Shown: one piece after another, positions 8,571 to 52,069 of the stretch
How positions within the stretch are numbered: the stretch's first letter is position 1
Layout of the letters: the number at the start of each line of letters is the position of its first letter
Origin: Telmatactis stephensoni
Taxonomy: Eukaryota; Cnidaria; Anthozoa; Actiniaria; Isophelliidae
DNA length: 64,000 nt
Assembly: GCA_029948255.1 (NCBI GenBank)
Contig: JALIZF010001430.1
Location: 186,001-250,000 of the forward strand
Direction: 5' to 3'
The notes under the pieces: model-generated
The model's database searches: none
Told to the model about the DNA's origin: nothing
The model's input: the letters and a program-made list of their open reading frames with translations, nothing else
Position numbers and translations under genes: made by a program

Positions 8571-8616
8571 GAAAACGCCTGTATATCATTTAAAGAGGGG
8601 GACATGGGAGGGTGCT

Positions 8617-8695
8617 AAGATCCGCAAATCCGCAAGAAAAATCGTTTAAATCCGCAAATCCGCATGATATTTTACGAAAATCCGCAAATGCGGCA
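8617..8695 (+). repeat. Subterminal ATCCGCAA repeats, left end
   Basis: Five copies of ATCCGCAA-type units directly inside the left tip of the giant element. The right tip (36795-36903) has the same motif. Unlike the satellites, the two tips carry the motif in the same orientation, which is odd for a TIR element. Confidence 0.7.
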
Positions 8696-10187
8696 ATTTC
8701 GGTTATATACGTATTTTTAAAATATTACATTTTAAAAGAATGCTAAAAATCGCTTACTAGCACATTTACATACGTGATACTTTGATGTTTCTGTTGTTTC
8801 CTTTTTCTTTTATGTATTTTTTAAAAGAAACTTACCACTTGTACCGTTTAGTAAAGTAAGCGGTTATTAAGATCAGTTAATAATTAAAACCACTCCTCGT
8901 GGTCTCGTGCTTTGAGAATTGCTTTGAATAAAGCGGGGCAATCAGGCTGACCTTTCTCAAAGTAGTAAATCAAAGGCCCCTATGGCCAACTCGTGGATAT
9001 AGCATGAATAGATATGTACCTAATAAGTAATGTCGCACTGCATTGCATGCCGCAAACGTGCTGTATAAGCTTGTTACGATAAATGTAGACGGTTTGACTG
9101 AATCGGAATCTGAGATCTAATACCATTGTTAGAATAAGTGTTTTATCTTTAAATATGCGTAGTATCACACACATTCATACTCTTATGACTTAATATTGTA
9201 ATTCATTCTTAGTTCTTACCAACAATTTGCTTTGGTCTCCCCCTGAGCTTTCAGACAGTGTACGTTTTTCGTAGCAGTTGCTATCTTCACGCTATCATGT
9301 AACCCTTGAAATTATGCATACACCGAAACAGGTTACACTGATGAGAACAATCAAATCGGTTCACTACAATATGGCTGTATATTATACAGTGTTTTTATGT
9401 AACAGGTTGCGTGATAAAGGAAATTGTACATGTTGATTTTCTTTTCAAGAGTCATTTTCATTTTTGTTCCATTTGGTTGAGTTTTCTTGGGATCCCAGGT
9501 ACCCCAAGCTCAGTTTTAGAGAGCGTGTTTTATGCCCGCGATGATTATTAGTTTGGGCTACCTGTGTCGTTTCTCAACTTTATTTAAGACCATTTGGAGA
9601 AAAAAATCTCGCGAAAATCAATACAATTCTACAATCTGAAACAGAATGTCTCTTATTTTATGTAGATTAGATGTTTATGTAACTGTTGGATAGTTTTTGA
9701 GCCTATTTGTGCGCGTTTTGGAGTATTTTTCTCTAATAGTGCCTGTGGGCGGATCAGATTGCAAATTTCAAGTTTGCGAACCGAAAAGGAAATATGACAA
9801 CTTCAAATAAATTGTGATTGGCTGTGATTTTGGATCCTATTGCTACGTCATCATGGATATAAAAACCTAAGCAAACTCAAAATAAGCATTGGGGGTGGGG
9901 GGTGGGAATGTGAGAAATAGCATGAAAAACTGGAAGTAATTGAGAAAATTTATAATGTGATCTAAAGATATCACACTAATATCAGCTTACTTTGTGCTTA
10001 GAACTGATTTGAATACTTAAAGAGTTAGAGTATAAACACTACAAATTAATACATAAATGAGCAGTAGTCTGCTGTGTTCTTATTTCTTTATACTGAGGAG
10101 ACATGCACATACTGGTATGCTATAATTCAAAGCTTCCCTGAGAAAATGGCCTTAGTGACTTTTTTGATAATTTTCAATTCTGGGCCT

Positions 10188-10459
10188 GGTTGTACGAAGG
10201 GTGAATAGTGCTATTCAGTGGATAAATCCTTATCCAGCAGGGCCCGGCTGTACGAAGGTTGGATAAAGTTATCCACTGGATAAGAGTTATCCACTCTATA
10301 GTTTTTGTATAGATTTTATCTGCTGGATAAGGATTTATCCGCTGGATAGCGCTATTCACCCTTCGTACAACCGGCCCCAGATAAAATCAGTACAAAATCA
10401 GTGGATAACTCTCACCCGCTGGATAACTTTATCCAACCTTCGTTCAACTGCACCCAGTG
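10188..10459. mobile_element. Palindromic cnidarian MITE pair
   Basis: Dense inverted repeats of TTGTACGAAGGGTGAATAG, GGATAAATCCTTATCC and GGATAACTTTATCCAACCTT with GGGCC-rich ends. It appears to be two related TGTACGAAGG-ended MITEs, one inside or next to the other. Non-coding. Confidence 0.6.
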
Positions 10460-11373
10460 GTCTAAAATAACATCCATTAACTTTTGTGTCCTAAAAATTA
10501 ATGGTCTGGACATCCATAAAAAATATTGATTGAGTGTTTTCGTTGGATGTAACTCTGATTTATGCCATATAAAATAATGGTGTGTTTCAAGGTGACTTTC
10601 TGTTGGACATTTATTTTAATACATTGTAGTCTAGAAAATCCAATACATAATGTGATACATTGTTGATGGTTTAAATGTGGGAAAAATATGATTGTTTCTT
10701 GTCATTGATTGCATTCAAATAGATATGTATCTCTCAATGCTGTAGCTGCAACATGACTTTATCCACAGGTTTTGTTCTCTGCATGAAGACTATTCATATC
10801 CCACATACATTGCATGCTAACTTCAGAAGATTAATTAATTTTTTGTCCATGAAAAGCCAATACATCATGTGATACTTTGTTGCAGTTCCATTAAAAGTTG
10901 TAAGAAATGGATTAGACCTGCCACCATTGACTCTCACAGTTACCATTTTGTCAATAGACCATATATTATATGTTCCTCAACAGACTTCAACAGGCGTTGA
11001 AAATACAAGTATACATGCATATAAATATATAACTTTGTAATGAATTGAATATAAATTAAATATGGCATATCAGACATTAAATAATATTAAATATTATCAA
11101 TTATGCTGTCTCTGTAAGAAACCCCATTGTCTAGCTGCATTATTCTATTCTAACCAGGAACACTTACCTTATATATGCTAATTAAATTATGATAGTGGAT
11201 TCTGGGGGCATGAAAATGCCCTTTATGTTGTTTTCAAGAAACATAATATTCCCTGGAAGGGGGTTGTCCCCCAATGAATTGTGTAATTTGCAATAATATT
11301 CAGGTTTGTATCACTGTTCAGTGCCAAAACATGAATTTTTGTGGTTTATAGGGTTAGTTAGGATACAAAAGTC

Positions 11374-11720
11374 ATGTTCAGCCCCTAGCTACTTCAAATA
11401 TAACTTAATGTCTCTGTGTCGTAGAGATCAGCAATGAGCTATAATTATAACTTTGACATCATAGCAACATGACTGTTAAACAACATGGGAATAAATATAG
11501 TAATTCTAAAAGTTAATATATGAATTTCAAAATTTTCACAGTTTAACCAATGAGATTAATGAGGGGTTTAAACAAATATAGCACAATAAGCATGTTTGTG
11601 CATTCCAAGCTGTTCAGCCTCCTAGCTCTTACTTGGAATATATATAACTTAATGTGTCTGTGTTGTAGAGATCAGCAATGAGCTATTATAAATATAAGCT
11701 TAACTTTGACATCAAAGTGA
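11374..11720 (+). repeat. Direct repeat of ~100 bp
   Basis: The block around CGTAGAGATCAGCAATGAGC (11374-11470) recurs at 11609-11720 with small differences, separated by about 140 bp. Non-coding. Confidence 0.7.
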
Positions 11721-12689
11721 CGAAGCAAAGTTTGATGAAGAGCGCGGATTAGATTAGATATTTAGATGAGATATTTACTGTTATAAAATATAAACTTCTA
11801 CAATTTACTCATAAATATAGGCTTACATTTATCATATTCAACACAAAATAAAATATAATTTCCACATTAAAGTCAACTGAATCAGTGTACTCACCCCGTC
11901 CACGATCTCAGTCTCTGTTTTATATGAATCCATTTAACCAGTTTGACTGAATCGCTTTGTAAATTATACCATTTCCTAAACACAATCTGAAGGCATTCTT
12001 TGAGGAAATTAATGATTGGAAAATATCGAATAATGTGATCAGAAAATTGCCTCACAACGCTTACAACGTTTCCTGAACTTCGGCCCAGTACTGAACGGCA
12101 AGCGGAGTCGAGCCGAAACAGTCTCGTACCCAGACTCTAACGGCTATCTGCTAACGCCTGAGTGAGCGAGTGACATCGAGTCCCCACAATAACTCGTTTC
12201 TATGCTTCGCATATCCACGAGTTAAAAATGGGTTTTGGGGGTCAATCGGAAGTTTTAATAAGAGTCATATCATCACAGTATATCCAGTACTATTAAAGAC
12301 AAAAAGTTTGGCGAATTTCAAGTTAGATTATGTTTCATATAGAAACACTTACCATATCGTCTCTTTGAGTTTCTTTAGTCTCTTCTCATTCTTATTGATT
12401 CTACATCTGATTTTTTTTTTGCGATAATGTTCTCCTCCTTTGCCTTCTTCGTAATTAAAAGAGTGCAACACAGTCTGATTGAGCTTCAGCCATTATACTT
12501 CATTGTACACTGTTGTATCCCGTCGTCTAGCAGCTAGCCACAGCAAAGTAATCAGTAAATATGACAGAGGTCAAGAACTAGGTCATTAAACCCAGGAAAA
12601 GTCGATTTTGATTGGGCGATATTATGGCGCGCGGAGTGGTCCAAAATTACAGCATTGAATTAGAACACATAATTGTTGGTCGGAGACTA

Positions 12690-13166
12690 AAATAACGTCG
12701 GTCGAAGAAATATAACAAAGTCAGAGAAATAAAACTCGGTCAGAGAAATAAAACGCGGTCAGAGAACTGAAAACTCGGTCAGGGAATGGCTAAAGTCTGT
12801 CAACGACTCAAAAACTCGTTCAGAGAAATAAAACTCGGTCAGAGAAATAAAACACGATCAGAGAAATAAAACACGGTCAGAGAAATAAAACACGGTCAGA
12901 GAAATAAAACTCGGTCAATTCACTAAAACTCGGTCAATTACTAAAACTCGGTCAATTACTAAAACTCGGTCAATTCACTAAAACTCGGTCAATTCCTAAA
13001 ACTCGGTCAATTCTAAAACTCGGTCAATTACTAAAACTCGGTCAATTCTAAACTCGGTCAATTACTAAAACTCGGTCAATTGCTAAAACTCGGTCAATTG
13101 CTAAAACTCGGTCAATTGCTAAAACTCGGTCATTGCTAAAACTCGGTCAGAGAATTGAAACTCGGT
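12690..13166 (+). repeat. Left satellite arm, outer segment
   Basis: Tandem array of a 19-bp unit (ACTCGGTCAGAGAAATAAA and variants with ACACGGTC) that passes into an 18-bp variant (ACTCGGTCAATTACTAAA). It is interrupted at 13167 by a foldback element. The unit's reverse complement forms the right arm at 34990-36545. Confidence 0.9.
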
Positions 13167-13949
13167 CACAGGTAGCCCAAGCTTTTGGTTTGTGTTGATT
13201 TACTATAGAATGTAGGGGGACTTTTAAACAGTCGATTTTTTGCCCTAAAATTTCATAAAATTTAATGAAATACTCACAGTGTCTTCTTGTTGCTCTAAAT
13301 AACCCCCTGACTGAGTTTCAGACGATTTCATTCGGGTTTAGGTACTTTCTCCCCACCAAACATAAGAGGGGTAAAGGTTGGAGACACAGGCCTTCAAATT
13401 GCCTTCGGTGGGCTCCAGTTCACGACGATTTTTTCACTGAAATATACTCTCAACCGAGGTCTGCACGCGTACACAGTTGAAGGAATTATTTCTCGATCTT
13501 CGGACGGCAATCAAACGAAGATCGGCGACTTCCCTCAGCCACCAGCCCACTCGTTGCTCGACAAGATCACAGGCAAACGACGCCATTTTATTCGCCGTTA
13601 TCGAAACTGTGGACAGCGAAAGCCGTTAAAAAATCTGAGAGGACCTGGAACGAGGAAAAATGAGACACCAACGGGTGGTACAGGGGAGTACAATGTCTTC
13701 CCAACAGTGTCATTGTACTCCCCTGTACCACCCGTTGGTGTCTCATTTTTCCTCGTTTGGTGGGGAGAAAGTACCTAAACCCGAATGAAATCGTCTGAAA
13801 CTCAGTCAGGGGGTTATTTAGAGCAACAAGAAGACACTGTGAGTATTTCATTAAATTTTATGAAATTTTAGGGCAAAAAATCGACTGTTTAAAAGTCCCC
13901 CTACATTCTATAGTAAATCAACACAAACCAAAAGCTTGGGCTACCTGTG
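13167..13949. mobile_element. 783-bp foldback element inside the satellite
   Basis: Starts CACAGGTAGCCCAAGC and ends with its inverse. The arms of about 200 bp (13167-13370 and about 13757-13949) are nearly perfect reverse complements. A second, perfect palindrome of about 40-bp arms lies inside (about 13658-13752). The 7-mer ACTCGGT flanks both sides (13160-13166, 13950-13956), consistent with a target duplication, although the tandem host makes this ambiguous. ORFs here are mirror images of one another and not genes. Confidence 0.75.
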
Positions 13950-15172
13950 ACTCGGTCAGAGAAATAAAACACGGTCAGAGAAATAAAATACGGTCAGAGA
14001 AATAAAACTCGGTCAGAGAAATAAAACTCGGTCAGAGAAATAAAACACCATCAGAGAAATAAAACACGGTCAGAGAAATAAAACACGATCAGAGAAATAA
14101 AACACGGTCAGAGAAGTAAAACTCGGTCAGAGAAATAAAACACGGTCAGAGAAATAAAACACGGTCAGAGAAATAAAACTCGGTCAGAGAAATAAAACTC
14201 GGTCAGAGAAATAAAACACGGTCAGAGAAATAAAACTCGGTCAGAGAATTGAAACTCGGTCAGAGAAATAAAACACGGTCAGAGAAATAAAACACGGTCA
14301 GAGAAATAAAACACGATCAGAGAAATAAAACACGGTCAGAGAAATAAAACACGATCAGAGAAATAAAACACGGTCAGAGAAATAAAACACGATAAGAGAA
14401 ATAAAACTCGGTCAGAGAAATAAAACACGGTCAGAGAAATAAAACCCGGTCGGGGAATTATAACTCGGTCAGAGAAATAAAACACGGTCAGAGAAATATA
14501 TCTCGGTCAGAGAAATAAAACTTGGTCAGAGAAATATATCTCGGTCAGAGAAATAAAACTTGGTCAGAGAAATAAAACGCGGTCAGAGAACTGAAAACTC
14601 GCTCAGAGAATGGCTAAAGTCTGTCAACGACTCAAAAACTCGGTCAGAGAAATAAAACACGGTCAGAGAAATAAAACTCGGTCAATTCTAAAAATCGCGG
14701 TCACTTACTAAAACTCGGTCAGTTCCTAAAACTCGGTCAAGTTGCCTAAAACCTCGGTCAATCATTAAAACTCGGTCAATTCACCAAAACTCGGTCAGAG
14801 AAATAAAACACGATAAGAGAAATAAAACTCGGTCAGAGAGTAAAACACGGTCAGAGAAATAAAACCCGGTCGGAGAATTATAACTCGGTCAGAGAAATAA
14901 AACTCGGTCAGAGAAATATATCTCGGTCAGAGAAATAAAACTTGGTCAGAGAAATATATCTCGGTCAGAGAAATAAAACTTGGTCAGAGAAATAAAACCC
15001 GGTCAGAGAAATAGAACACGGTAAGAGAAATAAAATTCGGTCAGAGAATTAAAACTCGGTCAGAGAAATAAAACGCGCGGTCAGAATTAAAACTCCGTCA
15101 GAGAATTGCTAAAATCTGTCAACGACTTGCAAACCCGGTCAGAGAAAGCCGAAAACTCGGTCAGAGAAATAT
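13950..15172 (+). repeat. Left satellite arm, inner segment
   Basis: Continuation of the 19-bp CGGTCAGAGAAATAAAAC array after the foldback insertion, about 60 units. A patch of the 18-bp CAATT variant lies near 14680-14790. Single-base variants alternate (CTCGG, CACGG, CACGA). No coding potential. Confidence 0.9.
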
Positions 15173-15216
15173 ATGGAAGCCGATAAGGGTCGCTGATTTC
15201 TTTCTCCAGTTTCACT

Positions 15217-15517
15217 TCCGAGTTGTCGCTTCTGAGTTGTCGCTTCCGAGTTGTCGCTAGTTTCAGGCCCTCGCGGACGCGACAAGTCGGAAATTTCCGA
15301 GTTGTCGCTTCCGAGTTGTCGCTTCCAAGTTGTCGCTAGTTCCAGGCTCTCGCGGACGCGACAAGTCGGAAATTTCCGAGTTGTCGCTTCCGAGTTGTCG
15401 CTTCCGAGTTGTCGCTTCCGAGTTGTCGCTAGTTTCAGGCTCTCGCGGACGCGACAAGTCGGAAATTTCCGAGTTGTCGCTTCCGAATTGTCGCTTCCGA
15501 GTTGTCGCTAGTTCCAG
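15217..15517 (+). repeat. GAGTTGTCGCTTCC tandem array
   Basis: Short units of GAGTTGTCGCTTCC are organised into longer units of roughly 80-95 bp that also contain CTCGCGGACGCGACAAGTCG. The base composition is clearly richer in GC than the surroundings. The array gives mirror ORFs on both strands that I do not regard as genes. Confidence 0.8.
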
Positions 15518-15617
15518 GCTTGTGAATGCTTGTAGTTACACAGGAATCCCAAAAATGGTCTTAATAGCACAAAGGATGTGATAATTTTAAATAAAAACAC
15601 AATTTTTTTGAGTTTAA

Positions 15618-15660
15618 AACAAGACATGTTTCGGCTTTCATAAAGCCATCTTCAGTTGTT
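15618..15660 (-). ncRNA. Hammerhead-like ribozyme motif, left pLTR
   Basis: Minus-strand copy of the motif described at 16312-16354: core CTGAAGA, GGCTT/AAGCC stem II, GAAA, minimal stem III, and AACAA/TTGTT stem I. Confidence 0.5.
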
Positions 15661-15829
15661 GAAGTGATTACAAGTTTTGACTAAATGTATCTACTAATCT
15701 AGTTACATATAAAATTACAACGGTCATTACATAGTTTGAATATTTAAAATTTGACATATAAACAAACTAAATACGAAAGATATATAAACAAATTACATTA
15801 AATTAGTCTTTCACTCATTTAAAATAAAT

Positions 15830-16171
15830 CGTTTATTTTCTGTTAAAGATCCCATCCCTGATGTTCTTAAATCTTGTGTGGTCTATAAATTTTCTTGTTC
15901 GAGCTGTAACGCTCGATATATAGGTGAAACAGTTCGCCATCTTTCCACACGAATTAATGAACACCTTTTTTCAGACAAACAATCTCATATTTTCAAACAT
16001 TTGTCTTCTAACATAGATTGTAAAAATGCTGCATCATCAGATAGTTTTAAAATAATTGATACAGCAAATAGTCCTTATCAACTTAAAATAAAAGAAGCTC
16101 TTCATATTATGGCTTCTAAACCTGAGTTAAACACTCAGGTTAAGCATTTAAATACCACCATCAATATGTAA
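15830..16171 (+). pseudogene. GIY-YIG endonuclease fragment of a Penelope-like element
   Basis: C-terminal fragment of a Penelope polyprotein. The frame opens without a start codon near 15830 and runs about 110 codons to a stop at 16171. It contains VYKFSCSSCNARYIGETVRH, the paired-cysteine YKFxCxxC module followed by the YIGxT half of the GIY-YIG nuclease motif. It also has the basic LSTRINEH segment that follows in this family. The endonuclease nicks DNA for target-primed reverse transcription. The reverse transcriptase that should precede it is absent, so this copy cannot move by itself. Family identification is strong; function in this copy is unlikely. Confidence 0.8.
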
Positions 16172-16311
16172 TTTGTTTATATATCTTCCGTATTTAGTTT
16201 GTTTATATGTCAAATTTTAAATATTCAAACTATGTAATGACCGTTGTAATTTTATATGTAACTAGATTCTATTATTAGTAGATACATTTAGTCAAAACTT
16301 GTTATCACTTC

Positions 16312-16354
16312 AACAACTGAAGATGGCTTTATGAAAGCCGAAACATGTCTTGTT
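16312..16354 (+). ncRNA. Hammerhead-like ribozyme motif, right pLTR
   Basis: AACAA, then CTGAAGA (16317-16323, matching the CUGANGA core), stem II GGCTT/AAGCC, GAAA (16340-16343), a two-base-pair stem III (AC/GT), the cleavage triplet GTC ending at 16349, and TTGTT closing stem I with AACAA. A U at the base of stem II is unpaired, so activity is uncertain. Minimal type I hammerheads with tiny stem III are known from Penelope pLTRs. Confidence 0.55.
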
Positions 16355-16490
16355 TTAAACTCAAAAAAGTTGTGTTTTTATTTAAAATTATGACATCCTT
16401 TGTGCTATTAAGACCATTTTTGGGATTCCTGTGTAACTACAAGCATTAGTGAAACTGGAGAAAGAAATCAGTGACCCTTATCGGCTTCCT

Positions 16491-16607
16491 ATTTGGCGCG
16501 AAACGAAAGCGAGGCTAAGCACGCACGCGACGCAAAAATCCAAGATGGCGGGCCTACTCGTTGGCGTGGCGTGCGTGCTTAGCCTCGCTTTCGTGTTCAC
16601 GCCAAAT
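16491..16607. mobile_element. 117-bp hairpin MITE
   Basis: ATTTGGCGCGAAACGAAAGC at the left end is inverted at the right end (near-perfect 37-bp arms containing GAGGCTAAGCACGCACGC). It lies upstream of the transposase ORF and could contribute to, or disrupt, its promoter. Confidence 0.7.
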
Positions 16608-16926
16608 AATATTAAGAATCCCGAATAGAAATAGCACTCTCGTCATTTTTTAATTTTTCTTTCGTTGCCTTTTTCCCATCGTCCGCCGATCCGTGTTCAC
16701 TAGTCCGTGTTCATCAGTCCACCGCAATCGACGGGAATGCCAGATTGAGAAATGTTGTACACCACCTAGATTATGTAGTTCCGGTGCCGGTTACCGATCT
16801 TCATTATCGGCTACATCAAATACATATACGATGCTGTGCGGCAAAAACTATTTCTCAATCAGGACTCAGTGATCGACATGTATGTAAGTTGATGCCTCAG
16901 TAGCGCTTTATCGAAATAATTCTATT

Positions 16927-18857
16927 ATGGCTACTTCTAATAGCAATAATGAATATCTAAGTGATTTCATACAATCATGTAGCAGGCTTTTGAAAAAAAG
17001 CGAGAGGCTAAAGGAAACAGAAGACCCTGCAGTTGTTGGAGACCTTTCCAGAAGATTTGAAACCTCGCGTGAAATGACAGGACGCTTGGTCTCTTCAACA
17101 GATAACTTTTTCTCAATAGAAACGAATGCGTGTCTCATTTCCCTGCACAAAGATATAAGTGATCTATGTAATTTCTGGACGAATAAGCGTGGACTTCTTT
17201 CTTCTATTGAAAAGCCAGGAGCTAGTACAGGAGCTTCCAAGAAGCCCGAACTTATATTTTCCGGTCAGCCGGGTAGACCAAGCTTCGACGTGGACATGGA
17301 AAAAGTTAAAATGTTGAGGAGTATTGGTTTCACGTGGAAAAACATTTGTCAGAAAATGGGAGTATCGTCTTCCACAATGAAAAGAAAAGTTTCAAGCCAG
17401 CTCGATACATTCGAAAGATTTACGCAAATATCAGACGAACAGTTGAAGTTGGTAATAGAGGAAATAAAAAATCTATATCCAAGCTGTGGAGAACGAATGG
17501 TGATGGGCATGTTAAAAGCACGCGGGGTACACGTTCAGAGAGAGAGGGTAAGAAACATCATCAGGCGCATCGATCCACTGGTAACTGCAATGCGATGGTT
17601 TGACTCCCGGGGGGGGCACTTGCATATATTTACTATACGGGGACGTGCCGCCCGTCAGGGTCGTGATTTTAGCTCCTGCGGTCTTAGACAGGGTATAGAT
17701 TTTACGATAAATTGTCTTAAACAGGGTCAATTTTTTTCAAATAGTGTAATATTCGAGGCCAACTTATGGTGACGAAGGTATTGCTTGATGTTAGCATACT
17801 AGCGACGTAATTAAAATATTAATGGACTAAAACCGCCTATTCTTTTTTTTTTAATGTACAATTTTCCTCACAGTCTTAAATAGGGTCCCTAAAATGCCCT
17901 CTTGTCTTATATAGGGTATCGTTTTCGAGAATTTAGGTGTCTTAAACAGGGTCAGGTTTGAGGAGGCTGGGTGGCACGTCCCCATCAGATCTGGAACAAG
18001 TGCCCCCCCCCGGGGTTTGACTCGAACACTCGTGTCCCATATCATGTACCTGCTGCAAATTCTCTTTGGCACATTGATGCAAATTTAAAGATGAGACACT
18101 GGGGCTTTGCTGTTCACTGCTGTGTTGATGGATTCTCGCGCCTTATACCATATGTGTTTTGTACTGACAACATGCGCGCAGATACATTGCTTAATGCATT
18201 TGTCAAAGCAACTGAAACTTATGGCGTTCCATCACGTGTACGTGCCGACCACGGGACTGAAAACGTGGGCGTGGAGCGGTTAATGAACAGTGTGCGAGGC
18301 CAAGGTAGGGGCTCTTTTATCAAGGGGAAATCAGTCCACAATCAAAGAGTTGAGCGGATGCACAGAGACGTTACTCGTTGTGTATCTTCCACTTATATAG
18401 ACATTTTTAATTTTCTCGAAGAAAACGCACTGCTTGACCGAGAAAATGAGGCACATCTCTTGCTCTTCATTTCACCTTTCTTCCGCGCATCAATCGTGCC
18501 TTGGAAGAATTTCGCCAAGGTTGGAATTTTCACGGAACATCCACAGAAAGCAATCATACGCCATTTATGCTGTGGCTGGATAGCATTATTGCTCCTGAAA
18601 ATGAACCGAGAGTGTCTGTAAATGATCTGCTAAATGAGAACGACGAACTGTCAAGCGATCCCGCTAACGATCAAATTGTTACGAGTAGCCAAGAAAGTGA
18701 CGACTACGACTTTCCACAAATTACAAATCCCCTTGATACCGAAAACTTTGTAGCTCTTGAAAAGTCAATTGATCCTTTAGAAGAAGATAATAATTATGGA
18801 ATTGACGTATACTTGAAAGTTCTATTGTTTGTTCTTGATTATCCTCGAAACGAATAG
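16927..18857 (+). pseudogene. IS3/integrase-type DDE transposase, interrupted
   Basis: The N-terminal part (16927-17606) has a helix-turn-helix region around GRPSFDVDMEKVKMLRSIGF and an ISDEQLKLVIEEIKNLYPSC segment. After the insertion at 17607-18014 the frame resumes with the integrase core: WHIDAN (first Asp, about 18068), VRADHGTEN (second Asp, about 18240) and [11 protein letters not shown] (Glu, about 18352). These are the DDE residues of the rve fold and resemble eukaryotic IS3-like transposases as I know them. The insertion plus its duplicated site is 417 bp, so frame is kept, but the inserted DNA contains stops. A second break, a one-base shift near 18450, moves the frame to the ORF that continues through [10 protein letters not shown] to the stop at 18857. 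It would mobilise the giant element; this copy looks dead. Confidence 0.75.
17607..18014 (+). mobile_element. G-rich-ended non-autonomous transposon, copy 2
   Basis: A 408-bp insertion with inverted ends CCGGGGGGGGCACTTG / CAAGTGCCCCCCCCCGG. It is flanked by the exact 9-bp duplication GTTTGACTC (17598-17606 and 18015-18023). It interrupts the transposase between its N-terminal region and catalytic core. Same family as 3233-3641. Confidence 0.85.
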
Positions 18858-19345: not shown

Positions 19346-20513
19346 GAATTTCGCTATGGTAAAAAGGGGTCCAGGTCTGCAGGTACGGGTCAAAGTTGTA
19401 CCCATGCGCTAGTCCCATAACAACGTAATGGGATGACTTTTAAATGTTTCAAATCATTTTCCCATTGGCTCGTGAGATTATTATTTCAACACTTGTCGTT
19501 CTTTGATGTATCTGTTTTAAAACACTGATAATATACTTGACAATTGACAAAACGTTTAAAGATGATTCACTTAACCCGCTGTGATAATTGTTATCACTGA
19601 CCCCTGTAGGTAAGCTACTTATAAGTTAAGAGCTACTTGTAGTTTTGAAAATGTTTGTACTGTACGTGTACAATGCACAAACCGAAACTACATTTTGCTT
19701 GATCTAAATGACTCCATTTGGGACAAAAAAGAGCTCTCTACCATCTATATTTATGGTAGTTTATAGTTGAAACTTCAGGCAAATCAACCTGAAAAGATGA
19801 GCTACTGAATTGGAATGTCCAACTAAAGACTACACATGTTATCAGTTAAAGAAAAATACTTTCCTCATGAAATGCACTAACTATCATTAACCTTTTCGAG
19901 ACAAGCTTTGCTTTAAAAGTTCGAGTGAAAACAAAAAACATCATTTTAAAATATACATCTGGATGCAAAAAGTATTTGAAAGAGCCACCCTTGAAGCAAG
20001 GTACTGGTTTTTAAAATAAACTACCTGAATTTAATGTATGTACTTTGTTCCGGAGAGGGAGGGTGCGTGCATATGTCGCATTTGATTAACGCAGTAAAGG
20101 GTTTTTATAATTAAATAAATCGCCTGATGAAATTACAGTACATTTCGTCATGCACTCTAAATTCCAAGTTATGTTGAAATCGTTTCCCTATAATCACGTG
20201 GACAAAGCAGGATTTAAGGCTTGGCTTTGAAGAGTTGCATTTACTCTAAGGAATGCGTTGCAGGAGCGACAACACTCTCCCAAAGGTAGGTTGTGACAAA
20301 TGACTATTTATTGTCTGAGCTATATATTAGTACGAAAGAGTATCAGAAGTAATATATTGGAGATGGTTGTGCTTAGATAGATTGAAGCAGCTAATATGTG
20401 TTTTTCTGATTACTTTCCATTCTATCCTCTTCAAGGTTGTACTATCGAACACGTGCTATCGAATAACTGCTCTAATTTACTGAGATTGACAACAGTTTCT
20501 ACTGATTTCCAAT
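19346..20513. other. Spacer upstream of the USP-AAA+ gene
   Basis: No gene recognised. The promoter of the downstream gene should lie near its end, but I see no decisive TATA element. Confidence 0.4.
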
Positions 20514-26500: not shown

Positions 26501-29500
26501 TTGAAAATTTCCGACGAGGTAAGTTTAAGTTTCAGTAAGCTTTGGGCGGGAAAAGGGGGAAAAAAAAATCGGCCAATCCCAAAATCTCTGCTGTCAGTTA
26601 AAGAAAAAAACAAATGATTTGGAGCGAAAAGAATAAAGACAATGGAACTCAATACGGGCCGACAAATCGTAGCAGTTAAGGTGGCATTTAATTAGAAATT
26701 TAACATGTTTTTTAATTATAGTTAATCACCAGCCTTACATATCTAATTTAATACCCTCCTACAGATTTTTCTTCGTGTCTGTGTATTTTCCTTGACCGTC
26801 TTTAAGGTGACTCAAAATAGTTTTCTGTTGAAAAAACCTCCATTTTTCATTTAAGGAAAAACTAGACTTATTGAAAACGGATTGAAACGCCTATTGCTCT
26901 AGCTATCAGGTTTGGATGAAAATTTTGCTTGATGTCCTTAGCAACGATAAACAATGATCGATGAAAAAAGGGTTTTCTAAAATATCTTTCGAGTTTGAGC
27001 AGCCTTAGACACGTGATATGGGCAATAAATTTCACACCAAAGCAAAGAAAATAGAACACAATTGAACTTATTTTTATCAAGTCGATTTTGAACAAATCAT
27101 AAAATTTGTTCGATTCTGAAGCCAGTTTATGTGATATATATATATTCAAAATCGGCTTGATAAAAAAGTTTAAATTGTGTCATATTTATTTGCCTTAGTG
27201 TACAGTTTATTGTTTATATAGCCATATATCTAGAGCTGCTTAAATTCGAGAGATATTTAAGAAAAACTGATTTCCGAGATCTTTGTTTATAGTTGGCAAG
27301 GTAACGCCCATCAACCAGAACAACTTTCATCTAAACCTGATAAGTGGATCAGTCAAAGGCGCTTCGATCCGTCTACAAGAACCCTATTATTTTTTAAACG
27401 AAAAGTAGAAGTTTGTTCACTAGAAAACTCTTTCGAACCACCTTAACTACGGAGAACTATTTGTTACTCAGTATATCATTGCTTTTTGTTATACAGCGTC
27501 TAGCAAAAATTGTCGACAACACTTTTCTGGGTGAATGGTTTAAAGAATTGACATGGAAAGAAACCGTACAGACTAAGACTGCACACTCTCGTATCCTTAT
27601 CAGCTTTATCAAAATTTAATGTTTGACCGAGGCTCATCCCTTGGTATAAACCGCGTCGAAGGAACGCTAAGCAACTTGCGAACATTGTATTTTACTCATA
27701 CGAATTAGTCACACTTTTGTGCTTTCACATTTGTTGTTGTGTGCTTACCTAAATTTAGAGCCTACCTCAACTGTAAAGCGGGTATTTATTTCTTAGAGGA
27801 TCCTTAACCACTTTAAGATGGACCAATCACGTGTGTAGCTCCATCTTTGAGCGGAGACGACGCAATTAAAGTTTATCAAGATCATTACCACTTAAAGAGG
27901 TGCGACACCTTACCACAAGAAGTAGCGGAAAAGTACGCTGACAGTGATACAAGTAAGTATTCCAGTCCTGTAGTTCATTGTAGTCCATCGTTTCGTCTTA
28001 ATGATCAATAATTATATTTGGTGTGCTATTCTCGATTCAGGACCAGTACCAGAAGAAATACTTGAATCCATTATCAGCGACTATCTGCCCGAAGTGTTTC
28101 TACTAGGAATTAGTAGAAATGTTGCTGATCTAAGCAATAAGGTATAGATTCCGTACCAATTAAGTGAACAACATTACATTTATTAAGATACATTTCATTT
28201 AATCCATAATCTTTCCTTTCTTTCAGGACAATACTATCGTTGGTATACCTAATAGTTTTCCATTCCACATTTTGAAAGGCTCGGGGACTGGAGAAGAGTC
28301 CGATGACCACACTAGCTCATACAGCTTGAAAGCCATGATTGTCCATTCAGATGTTCGTTCTCATGTTACTATTGTTATCAAGATTGGCGAAAGCCTCGAC
28401 TCTTGGTAATATAGATACATACCTTCGTAGGCCTATTCCGGGCCCTAAAAAATCGGCTTTTGATTTCGACAAATAATAGATAAATTTTGAGAAAAATGCT
28501 CCTCTCTGAGCGCATGCTTGATGACGTGTGTACGTGATAGCGTGACGCCACAATTCGACCAATTCAGAAACAAATATTCGGAAAAAAGCAAGAAACATAT
28601 TGTTTTTCATCATTTTCTAATGTTTCTACATAGTATTATAGAAATATAAACTTTTCCAAGGATTTTCGACAATTTGAGAAATGCGCAGACGAAATGCGCA
28701 GAAACAATGCCCATGAACGTCCTTAAATCGCCTAATATCGCCTACGATCGCCCAAAATTACGGCGATATTAGGGTCCGGTGTAGGCCTCTTCGTGAATGC
28801 ACCACAAAAATTTAGTGCATAACACTGCATTGTAATGTCTAATTTGCCTTTTGAAACAAAACTGTGGATACAAAGCCCTTCAACTGAAAAGAAAGACAAA
28901 TCTCGTTTTGTTGTTGTTGTTGTTCTTTGCAGGTTATTGTTTGATGACGAAAGAGTAACCCCATTCAAAATGAATGAAACTATCAGGAAGTACTTATACG
29001 GTGGTGAAAGGAACGACAGCATAAGTATCCTTAACTTATCAATTGAATTATGCAGACTAAAGTCCCGTTCACATGAGAGAGGGTGCCCCTGTGTAGTGGG
29101 GATAACTCGTTTTCTTTTCCCTGGGGGACACAAAACAAAAGAGTTCCCTACTGCATATAGGGGCACCCTCTACCATGTGAACGGGCCCTAAATGCTGCAT
29201 AGTCATATCATCAAACGTTTTAGTGGGAGTTGACAAAACTCATTCAGCGTACGATCGGTACAGATCGCGTAAATTTCATAAATCTCCATTTGGCAGTACG
29301 CTCCTTGACTACCCTTTAGTTTGTGCAATTTACGGCCAAACTGCTGCTTTTGGACATTACCCTTTACGTCAAACTGACGAGGAAAAGAGACAGATACTTC
29401 ACAGGTAAAACATAATAACATAGTCTTGTTGAAACCAAATCTCAAGTCAAATACCACTATGAAATGTTCGACCTAAAGATAATATTAATGATTATGATGA

Positions 29501-32500
29501 TAATGAATGATAATCATCATAATCACCGTGATTATTATCATTATTGTTTGTTGTTGTTGCTTTTGTTATTAGCATCACTGGTCACTGTTATACTTGTTAT
29601 TGTTGAAACATTGCGTTTCTAAGCTTACTTTTCTCTTGCCTTTCATCTGTCATCGTCTGTATATCACACTAAAGAGACAGTTTTATGTCATTATTATAAT
29701 CATATATTTTATCAAATCTATAAAAAACATATATGGGCAACTACATTTCATATTTTTCATACCTTAGGCTAAAAGAGGACGGTGTAGTGACATTTAACGA
29801 ATCTGTTAGTAACAGACGATCCCTGGTAAATAGAAATTCTGGAACAGCAATGGATTTATCAGGTGTGGCACTAATTCATGACTGACTAGGGCAAGAAAAC
29901 TTCGTTATAAAGGCTTCAGCTACATAATTCTCTCCTATGGTTTTAGTACCTCATTTGAACTAGCTGCATATTTTTCTCCGCAGTTTGGTTTTCTTAGCTT
30001 GTTTCTATGGATTAATGTATATTGTATTGTGAATATTAAATGCATCATATAGAGTCCCCCCCCCCCCTCCCCGACAGGACCTTTGGATGCTATTTCCCAT
30101 CGTGTTTCAGTAATAAATCTGTACAATGTACTATACCATTGAGTAAATTTTGTATGACTGTGAAAACAGCATTGCACACAGTCACGGCACGGTTACGACA
30201 GGAATTTCGAATGTTTTATAGGCCGCACGGAAATGATACGATCACGGGCGGCGCTGTCTGTTTTACACTCTATGCTAAGAGAGTGAATCGATGTGTGGAC
30301 GTCAGTATGATGTTCGCTCGCGGCGACTAAGCCGGTCATTTTGTAACGCCGTATAAATAAGAGAGAGTTTCCTGACGTCTCAGACATTAGGCGGCCCGAG
30401 TGATGGGGGGGGGGGGGGGGGGGGGCGGTACTCAACCCCATTTTGGATAGGGGTGAATATAGTACCCTATCGAAGACACAAAAAGACTATATGGCTTGGA
30501 ATCTCGTCAAAAGTATAGATCCTGTTTAATACAATTTTAGGTAAAATGTATACTGTTCAAGACAACAGGGCCAAAAACCAGCGGCACATACCCGTATAGC
30601 AAATATATTTGGATGGGATTTGAAGCATTTGATTGAATTAGTTGACTATTAAGTCAGTGGTAACCTTTATATCATTGGATTCATAGATGAATGCGAAAAA
30701 TTATTAACAAGCATCGACAGCCATCTAAGCCACATGCAAGGAATGCCAGAACTGAAGGACCGCCTTCGAAATATTGCGAGGAACTCTGTCCTGGATAGGT
30801 TGCGGTCGCGACTTGGGGCCTCAGTTGTTCGCGAGCCCCTAAATTTGGTTTTTATGGGGAATCCTGGGACAGGAAAAACCACTGTTGCAAGACTTTTTGC
30901 GGCGGGTTAGTTGAAAATCTGATTTTACGCTTTCTTGTTCATTAAACTATTTATTGATCATATTAATATTTTCATCGTTATAATTTTTTTTTTCGTTTTT
31001 TATCGATTTATTTATTTTATAATTTAATACCCTCTTCTGAAAAACATGGTCGAGAAGGCCGAACAGCATATAGAACTGACTTTGAGGGCTTTGACTGTGG
31101 CGTCAAAGAGAACCTACCTTATCGCCGTCACCTAACGTGTGGCGCGACAGGCTCTAACCTCTAACAGTAAAATGCCCTATAAAATTTCAAGTGATATAAA
31201 AAACAATATTGTTGCGTGCCCATTTTTTATCATTGTTTAAGTATAAATTAATAAATTAAAGAAATTAGACAAGGCGCATTTTCGAAAAATCAGATATCTG
31301 GAGGCATTTTGGGGTAGAGGCTGGTAACATAACTATTCTAAACCGATTTTTCATACTGAATGCGAATATGACTGTTACCAATACGTATTCTGCAATCTTA
31401 TGCGTGTAAATGACGTATTTTGTGAATTGCTACAGTCATTTCATACTAACGGCTTTTTCAAAAAACGAAATTTTGTATAAAAACACTTACAGTTATGCAA
31501 GAGATACCAACAAATTTCGATTTTTGAAAATTCGTATCTCCTTGACTTTTCAACTGATATCCTTCAAACTTCACAGTTTTACTGATTTTGATATGCTCTT
31601 TCCAGCCATGGTAATTGTTTTTAAGTTTGGACCCTTTTGGAATTAAATGAAAAAGCCGTTAGTATGAAATGACTGTAGCAATTCACGAAATACGTCATTT
31701 ACACGTATAAGATTGCAGAATACGTCTTGGTAACAGTCATATTCGCATTCAGCATGAAAAATTAGTTTAGAATAGTTATGTTAACAGCCTCTACCCCAAA
31801 ATGCCTTCCGCACTTTTTGCGATCGACTTTTCCAGTTTTGCGCCTTGTCTAAATTATTGTCTAGATGAAATGACGTTTAGTCATTAATAAACTCATTTGC
31901 ATATATATTATGTTCTCAATTTTCTCCCAGGAATTTTAATTCAAAATACTTAAGTACACTGCAAATATGCTTACTGAACGTCTTTTTGTCTGAACAACCT
32001 TTTTGAGGATGACTTAGTCTATATTTAATTAAAAAGACCCTAATACCTCTTTTTGTTCATTGTTTTTTTTTTCAGCTATACTTAAAGATATCGGCATTAT
32101 AAATGAAAACAAGCTTGTAGAGGTGCAACGAGACGACCTTGTTGGAGAACATATTGGGACGACTGAGGCGAAAACGGCCAAAAAAATCAAGGAGGCACAG
32201 GGAGGAATACTGTTTGTAGATGAGGCGTACCAGCTCCACCGCCAGGGCGCAAAAACCGACTTTGGACTCGAGGCGGTTGGGGTGATTATGAAACATCTCA
32301 ACCAGGAATCTTCCAAAAACACCCGAACCATTTTTATTCTGGCTGGTTACGAGAATCAGATGAGGAAGTTCATGTCCATGAACAAAGGTCTTTTTAGAAG
32401 ATTTCGAGAGCCAATTCTCTTCAGAGACTACAGTACAGAAGAACTGAGCAGCATCATGGACCACCTCATAAGACGCCAAGGTTTCGTCTGTGAAGCCTTA

Positions 32501-32788
32501 AACTGGGAAGACTTCTTTGCGTCGTTTCCTCCACGTTATATTGCCCTTTTTAACGGCGCCTTGTGCAACAGGACCCTGGTGAAGTTGAAAGAAGCTTTGA
32601 CAGAAAGAATGAGCTTCTCCAACGTCACCAGAGATAGTCTCTTCAAATTCACTATAGAAGATTACCACAAGGCCAAGGCTGCTATGATGGCAGATGCCAT
32701 CTTTGCTGTAGGTAATGATCAGAGTAAACGAGTCGATAAAAGCACCCAGACTAGCGATAGCGATATAGAGGAAAGTGACAACTCTTAA
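20514..32788 (+). CDS. USP-like protease (C19) fused to CbbX/SpoVK-type AAA+ ATPase
   Basis: Fourteen exons join in frame: 20514-20517, 20599-21425, 25136-25217, 26027-26145, 26369-26518, 27497-27590, 27839-27952, 28041-28141, 28227-28405, 28933-29024, 29224-29404, 29768-29862, 30687-30905, 32076-32788. All have GT-AG borders; the sum is 2970 nt, or 989 residues with no internal stop. Exon 1 is only ATGG. Residues 1-300 are low-complexity, basic then acidic. Residues 305-595 resemble a ubiquitin-specific protease: LLNLGSTC (Cys313), a His box IVHSDVRSHV (His543 candidate) and WLLFDDERV (Asp561/562). Residues 680-950 are AAA+: Walker A GNPGTGKT (737-744), Walker B ILFVDEA (797-803), sensor-like LAGYENQM and arginine motif GLFRRF. 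The tail is acidic. It lies between the satellite arms, so it is likely transposon cargo. Substrate and role are unknown. Confidence 0.8.
21616..22184. mobile_element. TIR element in USP-AAA+ intron 2
   Basis: TTGGGTTTTGGTCGAGAGTC at the left end is inverted at the right end; about 50-bp imperfect arms rich in TCGAGAGT. The interior of about 470 bp has no coding domain. Confidence 0.65.
22241..22647. mobile_element. MITE with CAGGGTGGTGAAGAGG ends
   Basis: Exact 16-bp inverted ends at 22241-22256 and 22632-22647. The interior repeats ATCACGAA/TTCACGGATCACGG motifs. Non-coding and intronic. Confidence 0.75.
22957..23550. repeat. Large inverted repeat in intron 2
   Basis: Arms of about 130-140 bp (22957-23090 and 23408-23550) are near-perfect reverse complements, including TTAATGGGGCGCGCGCCGTG. 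The spacer is about 320 bp. Probably a foldback element. The ORF at 22897-23091 is a by-product. Confidence 0.75.
23871..24290. mobile_element. 420-bp palindromic foldback element
   Basis: ATAGGCCATATGCACTAACA at the left end is exactly inverted at the right end, and similarity continues to a centre near 24081 (GGATGGCAAGCTCATGCCAT). It can fold into one hairpin of about 200 bp. The two mirror ORFs it contains are not genes. Confidence 0.8.
24616..24630 (+). repeat. Poly-G tract
   Basis: About 15 G after a run of T. One of several G or C homopolymers in the window (also 4381-4394 and 30405-30425). Confidence 0.8.
25585..25760 (+). mobile_element. tRNA-derived SINE in USP-AAA+ intron 3
   Basis: CTGGCCGAGCAGTGAGAGCG (A box) and TCGTTCAATCCCTGG (B box), then the CCGGGTACTCTAGTTTTTCC tail typical of cnidarian SINEs. 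Same class as 19150-19345. Confidence 0.65.
26818..27400. mobile_element. Imperfect foldback element in intron 5
   Basis: The left arm contains AGCTATCAGGTTTGGATGAAA (26899 onward) and the right arm its diverged inverse; arms extend about 250 bp around a centre near 27125. Older and more diverged than the 23871 palindrome. Confidence 0.55.
29056..29192. mobile_element. MITE in intron 10
   Basis: Ends CTAAAGTCCCGTTCACATG and CATGTGAACGGGCCCTAAA are inverted, with GAGGGTGCCCC inside both. It fills most of the 199-bp intron between 29024 and 29224, showing that this intron tolerated insertion without loss of the donor GTATCC or the acceptor. Confidence 0.7.
30400..30614 (-). mobile_element. G-rich-ended element, copy 3, internally deleted
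   Basis: Reverse-oriented relative of 3233-3641: poly-G, CAACCCCATTTTGGATAGGGG, then a jump over about 150 bp to TAGTACCCTATCGAAGACAC, ending GCGGCACATACCCGTATAGC. The far G/C tip is missing. Lies in intron 12 of the USP-AAA+ gene. Confidence 0.7.
31263..31855. mobile_element. 593-bp TIR element in intron 13
   Basis: Arms of about 195-205 bp beginning AATTAGACAAGGCGC are inverted around a centre near 31555. They share AATACGTCATTTACACGTAT-type sequence with few mismatches. Non-coding. It separates the Walker A exon from the Walker B exon. Confidence 0.75.
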
Positions 32789-33766: not shown

Positions 33767-34030
33767 GTGATATAGCTATTTCAATTAACATTGTCGCTGA
33801 AAAGACTAAAGGCTAAAGCCTTTCAAATATCTTTTGTGTGCTCACAAACTTTTCTGTAGGCCATCTGAGAAATCAAGGAATACGCGCGTCCAAGTTGTAG
33901 AATTTGCAAGCATGGCAGTGAGTTTCTTACTTGTAATAATGTCACGGTGAAAAAAAAATCATGATTCCTATCTCAAAGCTTTAGGCTTTTTTTCAACGAC
34001 AACGTTAATTGAATTAGCTATATCTTTTAG
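33767..34030. mobile_element. ~260-bp MITE with ATATAGCTA-type ends
   Basis: GATATAGCTATTTCAATTAACATT at the left (first 24 bases, given in part) is inverted at the right end near 33985-34030. The terminal sequence resembles the MITE at 46079-46375, suggesting one family. Confidence 0.6.
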
Positions 34031-34989
34031 GGTACGAAAAGAGCCCATCGCTTATAATCTTGTGAGAAGCTAGAAACAGTTTGACTAACAAAAGCGAGGC
34101 GGCCGTCCAATTTTCTGCTCACGAAAAAAAGTATTCATTAGCTTGTTGTCTCACTTTTAAAAAAGACTTACTGTACCTTTGAGGGGTACTTTGTTTTCAA
34201 AATTTCGATGAGTATACTCAATCCTTTTGCAATATAGAATTTCTTCAGGGTTTGGGAAATAGGAAGCAAGTATAACATGATTGCAAACTGTTTCGCAGCG
34301 TAAAAAAAACAGAACCTCATTTGCGTACATATATTTGAAAGATTCATCCCGGCCTTTATAGTTTTATCTGCTATGAGCTTTTGGAATCCTCAAGTTGAGT
34401 ATCACTGCTAGCATATTAATACAAGTGGCAGCATGTTCTTCGTCAGCTCATTAAATAGTTATTATATTTGATATTTTCTATATAATGTTTATCATAACGT
34501 TTCTAACCAGTATATTTTACAATTTTGTATGCAAACAAACAAATGAATAACTGATAAATAAATGAATAAAAAGAATGGATGATTACTATAAAACTGGAAG
34601 TACTTGTTTTTAGGCGTGGCTCCATACCTAGGATTACTTTGGGCCTAAGCATTTATCATTATGCAAGATTTCATATGGACACCCCAAGAGGAAAACCTTT
34701 TGTATCAATTTCATGTATAATGTTTTCCATAGTTATAGGACTCCAAGAAGCATTTAGGGGGCGTGGCTCTCAGTCAAAAATTACCCAGCATACTCTACCT
34801 TATCATTATCCTTCATTACACCTTTTTGTATTTTAGATGCTCTAGATCTTTGTCTTTGTTTCTGAGATAATTAATTCCAAAATATTGATATCATTGATTT
34901 TTGGGCGAGAACCTCTATCAGCGTGCCAAGTTTCTTGTTAAACAAATTTGCCCAATTCTACATAAACTCTGCACCATTTTCCTGGACTA
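34031..34989. other. Spacer before the right satellite arm
   Basis: No gene or strong repeat recognised. A GGGCGTGGCTC-type motif occurs at 34614 and 34760. Confidence 0.35.
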
Positions 34990-36545
34990 TCTGACTGAGT
35001 TTTGTTTCTCGATCTGACCGAGTTCTATATTTCTCTGACCGAGTTTTAGCGATTGACCGAGTTTTAGCGATTGACCGAGTTTTAGCTTGACCGGTTTTTA
35101 GCGATTGACCGAGTTTAGCGAATTGACCGAGTTTTAGTGAATTGACCGGACGTTTTAAGTGGAATGGACACGATGTTTTAGTGATTGAGCCGAGTTTAGT
35201 GAATTGACCGAGTTTAGTGAATTGACCGAGTTTTAGTGAATTGACCGAGTTTTAGTGAATTGACCGAGTTTTAAGTGATTGACCGAGTTTAGTGAATTGA
35301 CCGAGTTTTATTTCTCTGACCGAGTTTTTGAGTTTTTGACAGACTTTAGCCATTCTCTGACCGTGTTTTATTTCTCTGACCGAGTTTTATTTCTCTAACC
35401 GAGATGTATTTCTCTGACCGTGTTTTATTTCTCTGACCGAGCTGTAATTCTCTGACCGAGTTTTATTTCTCTGACCGTGTTTTATTTCTCTGACCTAGTT
35501 ATATTTCTCTGACCGAGTTTTATTTCTCTGACCGTGTTTTATTTCTCTGACCGTGTTTTATTTCTCTGACCGTGTTTTATTTCTCTGATCGTGTTTTATT
35601 TCTCTGACCGAGTTTTATTTCTCTGATCGTGTTTTATTTCTCTGACCGTGTTTTATTTCTCTGACCGAGTTTTAGTAATTGACCGAGTTTTAGCAATTGA
35701 TCGAGTTTTAGTGATTGACCGAGTTTTAGTAATTGACCGAGTTTTAGTAATTGACCGAGTTTTAGCAATTGACCGAGTTTTAGGAATTGACCGAGTTTTA
35801 GGTAATTGACCGAGTTTTATTTCTCTGACCGTGTTTTATTTCTCTGACCTAGTTATAATTCTCTGACCGAGTTATATTTCTCTGACCGTGTTTTATTTCT
35901 CTGACCGAGTTATAATTCTCTGACCGTGTTTTATTTCTCTGACCGTGTTTTATTTCTCTGACCGAGTTATAATTCTCTGACCGAGTTTTATTTCTCTGAC
36001 CGTGTTTTATTTCTCTGACCGAGTTTTATTTCTCTAACCGAGATACATTTCTCTGACCGTGTTTTATTTCTCTGGCCGTGTTTTATTTCTCTGACCGTGT
36101 TTTATTTCTCTGACCGAGATATATTTCTCTGACCGTGTTTTATTTCTCTGACCGTGTTTTATTTCTCTGACCGTGTTTTATTTCTCTGACCGAGTTTTAT
36201 TTCTCTAACCGAGATATATTTCTCTGACCGTGTTTTATTTCTCTGACCTAGTTATAATTCTCTGGCCGTGTTTTATTTCTCTGACCGCGTTTTATTTCTC
36301 TGACCGAGTTTTAATTCTCTGACCGAGTTTTATTTCTCTGACCGTGTTTTATTTCTCTGACCTAGTTATAATTCTCTGACCGAGTTATATTTCTCTGACC
36401 GTGTTTTATTTCTCTGACCGAGTTATAATTCTCTGACCGAGTTTTAATTCTCTGGCCGTGTTTTATTTCTCTGACAGTGTTTTATTTCTCTGACCGAGTT
36501 TTATTTCTCTGGCCGTGTTTTATTTCCTCTACCGACGTTATTTTA
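34990..36545 (-). repeat. Right satellite arm (inverted orientation)
   Basis: About 80 units of TTTATTTCTCTGACCGAGT (19 bp) and an 18-bp TTTAGTAATTGACCGAG variant. This is the reverse complement of the left arm at 12690-15172. Blocks of the two variants alternate as on the left. Flanked outside by the inverted copy of the left-arm boundary block (36545-36610). Confidence 0.9.
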
Positions 36546-36779
36546 GTCTCTGACTAACAATTTATGTGTTCTAATTCAATACAGTAATTTTGGACCACTC
36601 CGCGCGCCATACGATATAGATGACAAATGTATTACAAATATAAGGTCAGATAACAGATTACCGGAAATTGTCGAAATTGATCTCTTATCACAATCATGTT
36701 GAAATTTGACTTTGGTGTCACGCAATGTAAGGTCTTGCAAATATGTCCGCAAGTAGAAACTTGTAAAACTTAAGTTTTT

Positions 36780-36904
36780 TATTGGATCAGTTCGTCAAAT
36801 CCGCAATTTTTTACGTTGTGAGTGATCCGCAAATCCGCAATTAGGAATATCGAGAATCCGAAAATCCGCACTAAAAAATGGCTCAATCCGCCGATCCGCA
36901 AACC
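36780..36904 (+). repeat. Subterminal ATCCGCAA repeats, right end
   Basis: Copies of AATCCGCAA, GATCCGCAAATCCGCAA and AATCCGCC next to the right 20-bp tip of the giant element. They match the left subterminal motif in the same orientation. Confidence 0.7.
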
Positions 36905-36949
36905 CCCATGTCCCCCTCTTTAAAGTTTTCAAACTTATTCATAATTTAT

Positions 36950-38740: not shown

Positions 38741-38812
38741 AGAAGAAGTGCGCCTGCTACTTAAGTGCGTAAACTTTCGCTAACGATTCTTATTTTCTTA
38801 ATGTTACAGATA

Positions 38813-46375: not shown

Positions 46376-46489
46376 TATAACCATAGAAGTCCAATAACTG
46401 GCTTGTACTTCATGGTGGAATACATATAGGCACCTTACTAATTAACTGTATACTAGTATAATCTCTGTATATTAGTGTGTTCTCTGTAT

Positions 46490-52003: not shown

Positions 52004-52069
52004 GCGATTCGAAAAGACATTTCACCTCATCAAAACTCTCAGTCATTGTGAATTTCCATCGAATAACTT

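Follow-up and report, generated by a model that had tools for sequence, protein, structure and literature searches.

A satellite-armed transposon of the IS3EU type with a protease-like/AAA+ passenger gene, nested in an unrelated repeat element of the sea anemone Telmatactis stephensoni

What kind of mobile unit encloses two inverted satellite arrays, a transposase and a spliced gene is the question raised by a 64,000-nucleotide stretch of the Telmatactis stephensoni genome (assembly GCA_029948255.1, contig JALIZF010001430.1, positions 186,001 to 250,000), here called the window. A sequence-only reading of this DNA had proposed one 28-kb transposon of a giant class, bounded by exact inverted 20-mers. 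These 20-mers are indeed present, but they belong to a different repeat element from the one that carries the arrays and genes. The account that we consider probable overall is that a transposon of the IS3EU type is nested in this unrelated element, that its arms are amplified transposase-binding sites and that its lineage carries the protease-like and AAA+ genes as passengers.

A scan of the window for inverted matches (exact, at least 16 bases, arrays set aside) returned the 20-bp pair at 8589–8608 and 36905–36924, together with a perfect 28-bp pair that lies inside it (Table 1). The inverted boundary block noted earlier is thus real, and its actual extent is 28 bp. The target duplication that the sequence-only reading had suggested looking for is found at these inner ends, where the direct repeat CGATAT (6 bp) stands outside both tips. 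Furthermore, the 86-bp left end of the inner element matches its right end at 92%. The inner 24 kb has the anatomy of a single cut-and-paste unit inserted into a member of an unrelated repeat family, an anatomy that supports movement of this kind by an IS3EU transposase. Much of the length of the unit consists of introns and nested insertions.

Searches of the genome (483.5 Mb in 1,782 contigs, the window being part of contig C534) for the outer tip, with one mismatch allowed, yielded 36 sites, 34 of them beyond the window, and none for a reversed control pattern. Twenty of the 34 were retrieved, and one with a misfit display pattern was set aside, leaving 19 for comparison. Eight have left-type and ten have right-type ends as in the window, L059 is different, and their flanking sequences are varied. 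Because 18 of these 19 sites combine window-like ends with varied flanks, the outer 20-mers terminate members of a different repeat family, one copy of which hosts the inner unit. The outer element would measure roughly 4.3 kb without the insert. Its ATCCGCAA repeats have the same orientation at both ends. Six bases of the 20-mer form the palindrome TTTAAA, which is probably the target sequence, whole or in part; the duplication of the outer element reads as TTTAAA (6 bp) or TTAA (4 bp), and the search pattern for other sites already included part of these bases. A TTAA-type (Kolobok-like) identity of the outer element is not supported.

A single 28-kb transposon that ends at the 20-bp tips, its arms containing the satellites as inner portions, would explain why exact inverted 20-mers 28.3 kb apart enclose both arms. 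We regard it as very improbable, because the outer tip recurs at the non-window sites described above with other flanks, the inner ends carry a duplication of their own, and the inner ends are found elsewhere without outer tips, as far as the sequence was read. The sequence-only reading had itself named two findings that would count against it, and one of these was made: the 20-bp tips do occur independently. The other was not, since a second locus (C323, below) holds gene parts together with an arm. What survives is a transposon whose kilobase satellite arms flank a transposase and a protease-like/AAA+ gene and whose relatives elsewhere in the genome bear the same arms; the 28-kb boundaries do not.

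The integrase-type transposase reported previously is present, although its gene is in pieces. Two of these match the Pfam domain rva_4 (E 5.9e-55 and 1.9e-11), and the frame is broken by an insertion of about 0.4 kb and by a frame change. Across an alignment of the transposase core and nine other proteins, the first D never varies, the second D and the E are almost invariant, and 34 residues separate these last two. We infer that the rva_4 domain corresponds to the IS3EU transposase. In the available text of PMC10045372, IS3EU elements have TA..TA ends and usually 6-bp duplications, and rust fungal members have TAYGG..CCRTA ends in that of PMC12730594. The TATGG..CCATA ends of the window element fit both patterns, and its duplication CGATAT has 6 bp, as do TATGAG and TCACGT in relatives. 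Inverted ends longer than 30 bp, as given for fungal members, are matched by 28 perfect bases within the 86-bp end, and the integrase-type DD(34–35)E arrangement is retained in the conserved D, D and E of the rva_4 transposase. By termini, duplication length and transposase domain, the inner element would fit the IS3EU superfamily.

Polintons (Mavericks) have 6-bp duplications, together with a protein-primed polymerase and AG..CT ends. The window element ends in TATGG, and no polymerase match was obtained among the ten frames scanned with Pfam. A genome search for the transposase, in which 150 of 210 candidates were scored, gave a best match outside the window of 52% over 141 residues, with some short fragments at 56%; thus, the transposase core of the window is unique in the genome, whereas its type is abundant. 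Because its transposase is interrupted by a GTTTGACTC-flanked insertion and then by a frame change, the window copy is probably non-autonomous, and by the state of its gene it is probably immobile by itself.

The arms comprise inverted arrays of one 18/19-bp repeat, about 1.7 kb long on the left and about 1.5 kb on the right. The arrays are as real as first described, with best Tandem Repeats Finder (TRF) scores of 1443 (left) and 1615 (right). Every forward repeat core of the window (60 of 60) lies in the left arm, and 59 of the 63 reverse cores lie in the right arm. Fifty mononucleotide shuffles of the window gave a mean of 2.46 forward cores and a maximum of 6, so the observed arrays are beyond chance. 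The left arm is divided by a fold-back insertion, and the unit with a GIY-YIG match between this arm and the transposase is probably another insertion; that this unit is Penelope-like is only a guess.

Related copies are scattered through the genome. The 86-bp left end occurs at 35 places, twelve of which form six facing pairs: the window (24.0 kb), C195 (21.7 kb), C4 and C1118 (6.2 kb each), C125 (2.7 kb) and C488 (2.1 kb). The C4 (L013/L014) and C1118 (L034/L035) pairs have common flanks and a common duplication; they represent a single insertion that the assembly contains twice, so that both alleles of some loci may be represented in it. Target duplications are perfect in three independent insertions (window, C125 and C4/C1118), agree at 5 of 6 bases in C195 and are unreadable in C488, in which the right tip is altered. 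The giant class proposed earlier is not supported by this sample, as four of the non-window pairs span 2.1–6.2 kb, the fifth and longest is arrayed at one end only, and the inner element fits IS3EU.

Five of the six pairs, the window included, carry inverted arrays at each end, which amounts to four independent insertions. Counts of forward/reverse cores in the left and then the right half are 47/0 and 14/18 in C125, 14/4 and 0/9 in C4, 14/0 and 0/25 in C488, 11/0 and 0/11 in the end pieces of C1118, and 18/1 and 1/1 in C195. The first 2 kb hold 46/0 in C7, 41/0 in C142 and 0/0 in the single end C111. In C142, the start of the transposase (97% DNA identity over 851 bp) adjoins the left arm. 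The 21.7-kb C195 copy (L009–L011) contains other insertions; reverse-transcriptase-like frames, seen by eye, are probably nested retroelements. Among the 23 unpaired places, 17 with a related tip were retrieved (L036–L052). TRF scans of 11 of these revealed 18–21-bp arrays of a similar unit at nine, one weak array and one tip with none. GAGTATA precedes the related tip at 13 of the 17 places, and such tips may be parts of a larger repeat whose true boundary lies further out.

In most of these copies the passenger gene was not found. Protein-level comparison with its protease-like and AAA+ parts gave no match in C195, C125, C4, C7, C111 and C142 (3.4 to 22.5 kb retrieved for each), nor in C488; three of the short copies with arrays at both ends were read from end to end. 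Short DNA matches (41 to 367 bp) in C195, C4, C7 and C111 to introns and the downstream region of the window look like dispersed repeats. C323 keeps, in window order, segments 20115–20500, 20527–20650, 30874–31213, 31856–31898, 31903–32635, 34030–34525 and 34529–34582, with degenerate right-arm repeats after them; the gene start and the AAA+ exon are among the retained parts. Its AAA+ frame contains a stop codon, and neither a left arm nor a left part of the element was found within the 10 kb retrieved. C323 appears to be an old copy from which a large internal stretch was deleted. Thus, gene and right arm occur together in at least two copies, the window and C323. C187 keeps the AAA+ exon region only (92% over 704 bp) and has no repeat array in 5 kb downstream, and the short flanks covered at the weaker AAA+ matches C686, C400, C429, C818 and C356 hold no repeat cores.

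An intact relative is provided by another family in the same genome, two copies of which (C911 and C110) share 99.7% identity along 6.3 kb. The C110 copy spans 8,965 bp between TATGG..CCATA ends, has the duplication GACATT and encodes an open 502-residue rva_4 frame (E 7.8e-77). Near its end, about 140 bp of tandem repeats of about 21 bp lie within a 478-bp inverted repeat. Comparison of these two families suggests that the window arms look like an enlarged form of a C110-type array. Near-identical IS3EU-type copies (L074–L077) have an open transposase frame and probably represent a family that was recently active. A wider link of this transposon type to ubiquitin genes is unproven. By their motifs, minus-strand frames of the C911/C110 family seemed HECT-like and those of a second satellite element in the window OTU-like, but Pfam returned no match, whether the frames were tried singly or joined.

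The passenger gene of the window was modelled by hand. The spliced gene of 989 residues reported earlier is recovered as a spliced model of 979 residues, in which UCH (E 1.1e-8) and AAA (E 3.2e-15) domains are matched. Canonical splice sites occur at the modelled junctions of the ten protease-like exons, the middle joints were set by hand, and the donor of exon 6 is doubtful. USP/UCH proteases have catalytic Cys, His and Asp boxes; the predicted protease has Cys in its first box, where the Actinia homologue has Asp, and its His box is not canonical. Among solved structures, CbbX is closest to the AAA+ part. Both parts have their best named matches in proteins of Actinia tenebrosa, LOC116290481 and LOC116290464. 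Because these are two gene models, the window may likewise hold two genes. For each of them the longest contig given has 274,500 bases; this hints at a shared contig but tells neither whether the two are adjacent nor whether they lie in a transposon. The introns contain inverted-repeat pairs, which probably represent additional small insertions that make the element longer.

Table 1. Features of the nested elements, in window coordinates.
Feature	Position	Strand	Details
Outer, unrelated element, left part with tip and ATCCGCAA repeats	8589–12622	+	
Left target duplication	12617–12622		CGATAT
Inner element, IS3EU type	12623–36611	+	23,989 bp; ends TATGG..CCATA; 28-bp inverted tips; 6-bp duplication; rva_4 transposase
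Left inverted tip	12623–12650	+	28 bp, perfect
Left arm, outer part, 18/19-bp repeat	12698–13168	+	TRF; CTCGGTCA core
Fold-back insertion in left arm	13165–13951		197-bp perfect arms; repeated ACTCGGTCA adjoining, by eye
Left arm, inner part, 19-bp repeat	13950–15171	+	TRF
Inverted-repeat unit with GIY-YIG match	15175–16489	+	PF01541 E 2.9e-4, just under Pfam cut-off
Transposase gene, broken into N-terminal part, rva_4 core and C-terminal part	16927–18857	+	interrupted; frame change near 18450–18500
Insertion with inverted ends inside transposase	17607–18014		direct repeat GTTTGACTC at 17598 and 18015
Protease-like (UCH/USP) part of spliced gene	20514–29024	+	ten modelled exons; PF00443 E 1.1e-8; 45% identity to Actinia LOC116290481
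Inverted-repeat pairs in passenger-gene introns	22959–23545, 23870–24291, 31302–31806		
Two uncertain exons between domains	29224–29862	+	open frames and possible splice sites only
AAA+ part (CbbX-like)	30653–32788	+	two exons; PF00004 E 3.2e-15; CbbX 3zuh E 1.9e-40; 66% identity to Actinia LOC116290464
Inner edge of right arm	34029–35014		parts common to C7 (96%), C125 (89%), C488 (81%), C323 (74%)
Right arm, 18/19-bp repeat, inverted	35015–36535	−	TRF
Right inverted tip	36584–36611	−	28 bp, perfect
Right target duplication	36612–36617		CGATAT
Outer element, right part with tip	36612–36924	+	first 6 bases are the duplicated CGATAT

By analogy with Galileo, the arms are most likely amplified putative transposase-binding sites. 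The transposase would recognize the GGTC-containing repeat, and each arm would be a row of extra binding sites grown by unequal exchange or slippage. Deletion derivatives may then retain their arms because binding sites would suffice for movement in trans, and the protease-like and AAA+ genes would travel as passengers of the IS3EU-type lineage, be it as helpers of the transposase or as genes taken up from a host locus. Arrays are present in short derivatives of the family and, in shorter form, at related tips, and at 26 of 29 ends a TGGTC resembling that in the repeat begins 15 bases inside the tip. This last match adds little, because the ends were collected by similarity to one tip. Other observations likewise count against the account: array length varies widely among copies, C195 is arrayed at one end only, C111 has no repeats in its first 2 kb, and the near-identical members of the young C110 family get by on short arrays, which argues against any need for kilobase arms. 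The transposase, protease-like and AAA+ genes are, moreover, known together in the window copy only. Such variation in length, the empty C111 end and the insertions within arms would be expected if the arms were by-products, tandem repeats that slipped into being in dispensable end sequence and have no role in transposition; satellites similar to IS3EU in oyster and beetle, recorded in the available parts of PMC8268682 and PMC5844308, point the same way. This origin is rather unlikely, if by no means negligible, as inverted arrays occupy both ends of five copies, arrays recur at nine of 11 related tips scanned, and short derivatives retain them.

A stronger challenge, to which we allow a sizeable chance that nonetheless falls somewhat short of even, concerns the passenger genes. 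The protease-like/AAA+ pair may be a host locus that became trapped in the element or came to lie between two of its ends, and so not native to the lineage. Consistent with this, the large protease-like exon matched only itself in the genome, the two Actinia tenebrosa homologues are listed with the same 274,500-base contig, the passenger frames are open whereas the transposase is broken, and no other copy read has the gene, except for the parts in C323. Yet C323 is a second locus where gene parts occur with a right arm, with non-coding sequence on either side; in the window the pair sits in a unit with matching ends and a duplication; and the genome search revealed no host copy of the protease-like exon outside elements. 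The sequence-only reading had asked whether transposase, USP-AAA+ gene and satellites always travel together, and the answer is divided: gene parts accompany the right arm in C323, whereas the full set is known once and the three short copies read through gave no passenger match. Passage of both genes with the IS3EU-type lineage remains the reading that we prefer.

Several other features lie near the nested pair. A second satellite-armed element (46400–52395) has a 24-bp inverted tip, an 8-bp duplication CAATAACT, another 19-bp repeat, a left arm of about 2.7 kb and a right arm of about 0.3 kb; its duplication length is unlike that of IS3EU. No transposase was seen among its frames of at least 60 residues, and Pfam gave no match for the two frames tried. 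Helitron-type frames occupy 55107–58888 (Helitron_like_N, E 7.8e-36, and a weak helicase C-terminal match), and the second satellite-armed element may lie inside this Helitron. Just beyond the outer element, 38765–41448 encodes TPR repeats (PF13424 E 2.6e-35) followed by a CHAT domain frame (PF12770 E 4.6e-55). A 69/138-bp tandem repeat at 53737–54156 falls within the open frame 53411–54286.

Passenger genes are a feature that the window element shares with fungal IS3EU (IS3EU/GingerRoot) elements, which carry TET/JBP and alpha-kinase genes according to the available parts of PMC10045372 and PMC12730594. Neither the kilobase 19-bp arms nor the protease-like/AAA+ gene appears in the IS3EU descriptions of those parts. 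Comparable arms are also not described for IS3EU in the parts of PMC8268682 and PMC5844308 available, the four papers being part of the IS3EU literature only, so that a record in print is possible. Long inverted ends with internal tandem repeats are known from the fold-back-like Drosophila elements Galileo and Tetris (PMC3688188 and PMC4079207, in part), and the Galileo repeats contain transposase binding sites (PMC3688188). These elements are, however, P-type or probably Mutator-type, whereas the window element has an rva_4 transposase and a 6-bp duplication; Tetris has duplications of 8–10 bp and a repeat unit of about 220 bp (PMC4079207). At most, the window element may resemble Galileo in its working. 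The IS3EU-similar tandem repeats CgiSat35 and CgiSat47 (oyster) and TCAST10 (flour beetle) have longer monomers (129 and 690 bp; TCAST10 is half-related) and are not described as inverted arms of an element in the parts seen of PMC8268682 and PMC5844308. Teratorn and other giant eukaryotic transposons likewise exceed 20 kb and carry extra genes, but introns and nested insertions make up much of the window element; the term IS3EU occurs zero times in the available text of a review of giant transposons (PMC6431247). Helitrons that carry deubiquitinases also combine a transposon with a ubiquitin-protease-like domain, although they are rolling-circle elements with VTD or OTU domains in the portion available of PMC9741609, in contrast to the predicted UCH/USP domain here.

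What is uncommon in this IS3EU-type element is therefore its kilobase satellite arms and its protease-like/AAA+ gene, as IS3EU-similar satellites themselves are already on record. The protease-like/AAA+ gene adds to the passengers reported for IS3EU in the accessible portions of PMC10045372 and PMC12730594. A more general proposal, which we hold to be unlikely, is that in an animal IS3EU lineage the arms are amplified arrays of the site that its own transposase binds and the ubiquitin-protease-like/AAA+ pair is a helper module shared between anthozoans. If this were true, a single transposition machine would include both satellite DNA and a protein-handling module. In a single genome, members of one transposon type range from about 140 bp of subterminal repeats in the C110 family to kilobase-long arms, which allows satellite growth to be compared among them, and with the intact relative found there the binding-site idea would become testable.

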